The notes beneath the pieces were generated by a model. It was given only the letters and a program-made list of their open reading frames with translations. It ran no database searches and had not been told where the DNA came from. Both the position numbers and the translations under genes were made by a program. From contig JAPLNJ010000866.1 in assembly GCA_026692885.1 (NCBI GenBank), positions 1 through 7,973 of the forward strand: a stretch of 7,973 nt of DNA, given 5' to 3'. Of the stretch, positions 2,225 through 2,443 are shown one piece after another (position 1 is the first letter of the stretch; each line of letters starts with the position of its first letter). The stretch comes from Planctomycetota bacterium (GTDB lineage Bacteria > Planctomycetota > Planctomycetia > Pirellulales > Pirellulaceae).

Positions 2225-2443
2225 TCAGGCCGGAGCCGCCGCGGTGGCCGTCAAGCCAATCGCTTCCGCGTACTTCAGATGGGTTTCGACCGACGCAATC
2301 ACCACGCGGGCCTCGATCGACAGCAATTCGATTCCCACGAGCGATACCTTCACCCAAGCGTCGACCACGATACCCTTGTCTAGGATGCGGTCTACCACTT
2401 ACGCCAGACTCGAACTGTCCGTCGATTTTATGACCTTGGCCAT
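2225..2443 (-). pseudogene. gvpA: gvpA, gas vesicle structural protein, with in-frame nonsense codon
   Basis: Read straight through, this frame gives a 72-codon GvpA, the small hydrophobic protein that polymerises into the ribbed wall of gas vesicles (buoyancy organelles). Hallmarks: SSSLA at the N terminus, then VVDRILDKGIVVDAWVKVSL, GIELLSIEARVVIASVETHL and KYAEAIG, with an alanine-rich tail; length is normal for the family. Codon 15 is TAA (2399-2401) where GvpA proteins normally have glutamate in the SSSLAE segment, so a single GAA-to-TAA change explains it. The remaining 57 codons are undisturbed. The ATG at 2443 has a strong ribosome binding site (AAGGAG, 2452-2457, 8 bases away). The next codon after TAA is GTG, so reinitiation is imaginable but would give a protein lacking the N-terminal segment. 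Everything else looks freshly functional, so the mutation is recent, or it is a sequencing error. No other gvp gene is in the window. Confidence 0.9.

Follow-up and report, generated by a model that had tools for sequence, protein, structure and literature searches.

Does a gvpA gene whose reading frame is whole apart from one early stop codon record a cell that has lost its gas vesicles, a wrong base in a metagenome contig, a shortened wall protein still in use, or a copy that its host could do without? This question is raised by a locus on the 7973-base contig analysed here, whose whole length we call the window. We approached it through the frame itself, the age of its lesion, the genes that surround it and the gvpA copies of other genomes.

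Reading frame, stop codon and age of the lesion

The features of the window on which the argument depends are the following.

2225..2443, minus strand: interrupted gvpA frame of 72 codons plus TGA, identified by its translation and Pfam PF00741; nearest DNA relative found on contig C438 of genome G847
2399..2401, minus strand: in-frame TAA at codon 15, read from the sequence, where 110 of 119 homologues (from the best 120 of 5831 matches) have Glu
2225..2398, minus strand: 57-aa frame from the GTG right after the TAA, a possible restart product, read from the sequence
2279..2281, minus strand: codon 55, His in place of a conserved aromatic residue, found in 0/119 and 0/221 homologues
2444..2522, minus strand: leader of gvpA with AAGGAG, resembling the leader in the gvp locus of G847 by blastn and alignment
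409..2139, minus strand: ABC1/UbiB-type kinase (Pfam ABC1, 235 bits), downstream of gvpA and not a gvp gene
3157..3354, minus strand: cold-shock protein gene, upstream of gvpA (Pfam CSD, 66.5 bits on 3157-3435; start at 3354 read from the sequence)

Read on the minus strand from 2443 to 2225, gvpA translates as MAKVIKSTDSSSLA, the stop, and then VVDRILDKGIVVDAWVKVSLVGIELLSIEARVVIASVETHLKYAEAIGLTATAAAPA up to the closing TGA. The frame begins with ATG and has AAGGAG 8 nt upstream of this start; the full-length GvpA frame, the ribosome binding site and the TAA followed by GTG, all described in a sequence-only reading of this DNA, were found in their places in sequence and translation. With a cut-off of 25 bits, the Pfam Gas_vesicle profile gives 54.9 bits for the frame behind the stop and, across all of its positions (1-39 of 39), 50.1 bits for the frame with X at the stop, values that rule out a chance similarity to GvpA. 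As regards membership of PF00741, the profile score lies above the curated cut-off, and an uninterrupted frame of about 70 residues with the N-terminal segment and alpha-1 is absent.

The stop stands where GvpA has glutamate, in agreement with the earlier claim. Of 119 homologues, 110 carry Glu and 5 Asp at codon 15, and 4 lack the codon owing to later starts; the set consists of the best 120 of 5831 protein matches minus the window, all aligned on the RILDKG motif. Among DNA copies from fetched loci, GAA or GAG occupies this codon in 32 of 37 and GAC or GAT in 5 of 37. None of 44 distinct GvpA-type copies from the fetched loci (41 of them complete over codons 1-65) has a stop in codons 4-65, a count taken over loci that were chosen by similarity and hence are no random sample. 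Copies that carry one TAA or one TAG (L084, L086, L092 and L124) were considered as parallels and rejected, these codons being the natural ends of slightly shorter proteins and not codon 15. The window gvpA displays one mark of a recent pseudogene, a disabling lesion in a frame otherwise like that of intact relatives.

The same reading had found no damage besides the stop, a statement that has to be amended for codon 55. At residue 55 the window has His; 118 of the 119 homologues drawn from the best 120 of 5831 matches have Tyr and 1 has Phe. A larger set was made by joining two protein match lists (222 minus the window, with P0262 dropped since its motif was unmatched, giving 221), and among these listed matches 220 have Tyr and 1 has Phe at this residue, so that Tyr or Phe occurs in 221 of 221 scorable homologues. 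The solved GvpA structures of PF00741 are 8gbs and 7r1c; chain 7r1c, given as B. megaterium GvpA2 in the part of the report available (PMC10185304), carries Trp at the corresponding position. The rare missense at codon 55 would be in keeping with the same relaxation of constraint as the stop. Codon 55 nevertheless lies in helix alpha-2, according to the residue numbering in the accessible text of PMC9994262, and this helix is reported as the single conserved region that tolerates mutations well (PMC10185304, in the same part), so His55 need not be damage. Residue 5, a variable site, is Ile in the window and in none of the 119 homologues listed. Taken as a whole, the window gene shares with the GvpA family a frame of 72 residues, 94% identical to that of G847, and the conserved residues of the beta-hairpin and helix; it differs from the family in the stop at codon 15, in His55 and in having no match to another gvp family within the 8 kb window.

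The age of the lesion was assessed against the nearest DNA copy found, on contig C438 of G847, with a protein identity of 94%. The comparison of substitution rates, run over the 72 codons, is dominated by synonymous change: there are 26 synonymous and 4 non-synonymous differences, the latter at codons 5, 15 (the stop, counted here), 43 and 55, in line with a recent event, as the earlier reading had proposed. A wholly neutral path would be expected to bring about 67 non-synonymous changes alongside 26 synonymous ones, and the probability of 4 or fewer non-synonymous changes among 30, were all neutral, is 3e-11. For the window gene's own branch, the neutral part has a point estimate of 3-12% and a 95% upper bound of 14-27%, ranges that vary with the number of the four changes assigned to this branch and that assume half of the synonymous changes on it and a kappa of 2. 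Constraint on gvpA persisted until recently, and the data fit one late change as well as three. Changes are few overall, and those bearing on a relaxed constraint after the stop amount to one rare missense, at codon 55, and little else. Judged by these codon differences, the inactivation looks recent relative to the divergence of the window gvpA from G847.

Surroundings of gvpA and its copies in other genomes

A six-frame Pfam search of the window returned ABC1 (with overlapping APH and RIO1), cold-shock, GvpA, reverse transcriptase/maturase and SelB domains, together with two unrelated matches below the cut-off, SSI and DUF1828. No further gvp family was found in the six frames of the 8 kb window, a result to be read with the proviso that divergent gvp genes may escape Pfam; the partner genes for which a search had been suggested, gvpF/L and others, gave no match there. 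Since no more than 2.2 kb and 5.5 kb separate gvpA from the two edges of the window, a gvp cluster might be located outside it on either side. A consensus scan of 2100-2900 yielded no promoter or terminator. As to the host, all SelB relatives that carry an organism in their name belong to Planctomycetes, Planctomycetota, Planctomycetaceae, Pirellulaceae or Pirellulales (120 matches listed, most of them lacking an organism name). One of these proteins, P0121, on a 2.7 kb contig, is 98% identical to the window SelB, and a SelB at E <= 1e-180 was found in 1 of 392 genomes in the phylum of G039, namely G802, at 63% identity.

The gvp locus of G847 (L177) matches the window by blastn over 2225-2522 at 79.9% identity, and the likeness between the two is limited to gvpA and its leader of about 79 bp. 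In G847, other PF00741-type genes occur about 2 kb to one side of gvpA and 1 kb to the other, and GvpF/L is encoded on this contig too, at a distance of about 5-9 kb. GvpF/L was likewise present in 14 of the 14 gvpA-bearing genomes chosen for its search. No gvpA turned up by motif search in the available flanks of 61 related ABC1 loci, and no match to ABC1, SelB or the cold-shock protein at E <= 1e-5 occurred in 20 gvpA stretches from other genomes.

Genes like gvpA are present in 22 of 392 genomes in the phylum of G039 (L039, Phycisphaerae) and in 9 of 387 in the phylum of G001 (L001, Victivallales); among relatives of G802 they occur in 2 of 147, and among those of G847, an overlapping set, in 3 of 196. 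A search for PF00741 was positive in 2 of 46 genomes from which the ABC1 loci come and in 2 of 59 relatives of G001. At least two GvpA-type copies at >=70% identity occur in 6 of 17 genomes in the phylum of G039 and in 4 of 6 in that of G001. The nearest gvpA-bearing genomes found (G847, G969 and G986) hold one GvpA-type copy each, implying that a spare copy is no rule there, and our confidence in a spare copy was lowered accordingly, while that in a loss of buoyancy was raised. Six gvpA loci, with 43-77% identity over part of the query, were found on viral contigs, and five plasmid records carry gvpA at 72.7-75.0% identity.

A partial parallel to the window is offered by G001, a 9.6 Mb MAG with GvpA-type copies on four contigs. 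Those on C44, C436 and C77 share about 440-500 bp, comprising a leader of about 220-260 bp, the gene and a short tail; GvpF/L is found on C44 and C135, and no GvpF/L match occurs on C436 (78 kb) or C77 (3.3 kb). The copies on C436 and C77 are like the window gene in having their own leader on a contig with no GvpF/L match. Between the genes on C436 and C135, 16 codons show synonymous differences and 0 show non-synonymous ones; the C436 gene is intact, unlike the gvpA of the window. The C77 gene (L154, 1590-1805) differs from that of C436 by 15 non-synonymous and 6 synonymous codons and has lost its usual start codon, the frame being open from an ATG further upstream. Judging from these changes, we read the C77 gene as degenerate, with its frame still open. 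Its decay is of another kind than that of the window: a lost start, a 15 to 6 ratio of non-synonymous to synonymous change and no stop, as against few non-synonymous changes and a stop. C77, with its 3.3 kb, is too short to establish a stray position for its gvpA, and both C436 and C77 could be contaminants of the MAG.

Explanations for the stop

Most likely the locus reflects an ordinary event, a recently broken and probably stray copy of gvpA. We consider it probable that in a planctomycete-like bacterium a stray gvpA with a short leader stayed under purifying selection until recently and then suffered inactivation by a nonsense change at codon 15. The gene and its leader would be located apart from the gvp cluster; selection would have preserved the stray copy until lately, the change at codon 15 would then have silenced it, and a separate cluster elsewhere in the genome would make the copy dispensable.

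The main rivals of a stray copy are an assembly error and a true loss of buoyancy. We regard it as unlikely that the gene is intact in the organism and that the TAA is a wrong base in the metagenome contig. The lesion is a single codon in a gvpA frame that is otherwise open, and the stop is read from one lone contig, both of which would suit an assembly or sequencing error; against this, the same 72 codons hold a second unusual change, at codon 55, and the contig's SelB (645 codons) and ABC1 (576 codons) genes are free of internal stops. About as unlikely is the reading in which the window gvpA was the working copy, or is what remains of a gvp cluster that has been dismantled, and the lineage has lost its gas vesicles. 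The recent date of the lesion is consistent with such a loss, the single GvpA-type copies of G847, G969 and G986 speak for it, and there is a precedent in Anabaena sp. 90, where, in the portion of the report available, a strain-level loss of buoyancy coincides with a truncated gvpG (PMC3542288). The window, however, has no other gvp family match, which shows that its gvpA is not in a cluster layout like that of G847, and several gvpA-bearing genomes of the phyla of G039 and G001 hold more than one GvpA-type copy. On these two grounds the loss of buoyancy put forward by the sequence-only reading does not follow from the break.

If the TAA is real and the preferred reading of a broken stray copy is followed, the fate of the frame behind the stop has to be considered. 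The N terminus of GvpA is reported to cross to the neighbouring rib and make rib-to-rib contacts (PMC9994262, accessible text), and in haloarchaeal GvpA altered polar residues in alpha-1 are reported to give vesicle-negative cells (PMC9501494, in the part available). Analogy with these proteins suggests that a product starting at codon 16 would lack both the rib-linking segment and the start of alpha-1 and, for that reason, would not be a working wall protein; most likely it would not build vesicle walls.

That a restart at the GTG behind the TAA yields a functional 57-residue GvpA, deprived of its N terminus, seems to us very improbable. The GTG directly adjoins the stop, and three database proteins among the matches listed (P0003, P0005 and P0042) have the same length of 57 aa and the same starting codon. 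Other entries, P0099, P0243 and P0324, start at codon 13, implying that gene callers can place database starts inside a gene; moreover, no Shine-Dalgarno-like run is seen in the sequence ahead of the GTG, and the segment missing from the restart product is the one that makes the rib contacts (PMC9994262, accessible text). Codon 16 reads GTG in 7 of 38 other gvpA copies too, which marks it as an ordinary valine codon and not as an acquired start. It is more improbable still that a split between stop and GTG recurs in the window, P0003, P0005 and P0042 and produces an N-terminally shortened GvpA that changes or caps the vesicle wall. Should such a split at codons 15 and 16 prove recurrent and translated, it would be relevant to the way in which the N terminus determines vesicle geometry.

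We give almost no credence to a decoding of TAA as an amino acid in the source organism. TAA ends none of the five window frames checked (four end in TGA and one in TAG), as such a decoding would allow. Yet SelB and ABC1 contain 39 and 36 GAA/GAG codons (75 together) and no internal TAA, and the organisms named among the SelB relatives listed are planctomycetes. Planctomycetes are not known to depart from the standard genetic code, and SelB is not known to read TAA. The earlier statement that the selB nearby is unable to recode the stop thus stands, supported as well by the lack of an internal TAA in SelB and ABC1. Selenoprotein recoding, which needs UGA and a SECIS element, was rejected, the codon being TAA and no RNA family match occurring at the site. 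Phase variation, also raised earlier, found no support: no homopolymer or short repeat is seen at the stop, and a repeat search, whose scope leaves out units of 1-3 bases, returned none there.

Naturally inactivated gvp genes are already known, an example being gvpG of Anabaena sp. 90 according to the available part of the report (PMC3542288). The window resembles that case in the natural inactivation of one gvp gene. It differs in that the Anabaena gene, in the same part of the report, is mutated within its operon and the loss of buoyancy was observed, whereas the window is known from its sequence alone. Judged by titles and the starts of abstracts, none of the papers retrieved is about a lone broken gvpA. 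From this locus it seems that a gvpA and its leader can be situated outside gvp clusters and decay there, so that a single gvpA, present or broken, on a short contig would carry little information about buoyancy.

Other features of the window

The ABC1/UbiB-type kinase gene at 409-2139 shares about 82-85% DNA identity along its length with genes at L003, L004, L008, L009, L010 and L012, matches beginning within the gene having been filtered out of this comparison. These copies come from MAGs labelled Opitutia, Lentisphaerae, Desulfuromonadales, Deltaproteobacteria and Verrucomicrobia, and the neighbours of ABC1 differ among the eight loci compared. On sequence likeness, this looks like a single gene common to several phyla. 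The neighbourhood of ABC1 was considered as a route to sister strains and rejected, a gene shared across differently labelled MAGs being a poor guide to kinship.

At 3834-4532 lies a truncated group II intron reverse transcriptase/maturase with a GIIM domain, whose RVT_1 domain is matched only from profile position 120 in the open reading frame, or 91 in the frame with X. The one match in the RNA family scan, to a microRNA family at 4584-4617, scored below the gathering threshold and was taken as chance. At 7663-7775 there is an inverted repeat of 27 nt, 93% complementary and with a spacing of 59 nt, possibly a small mobile or REP-like element.
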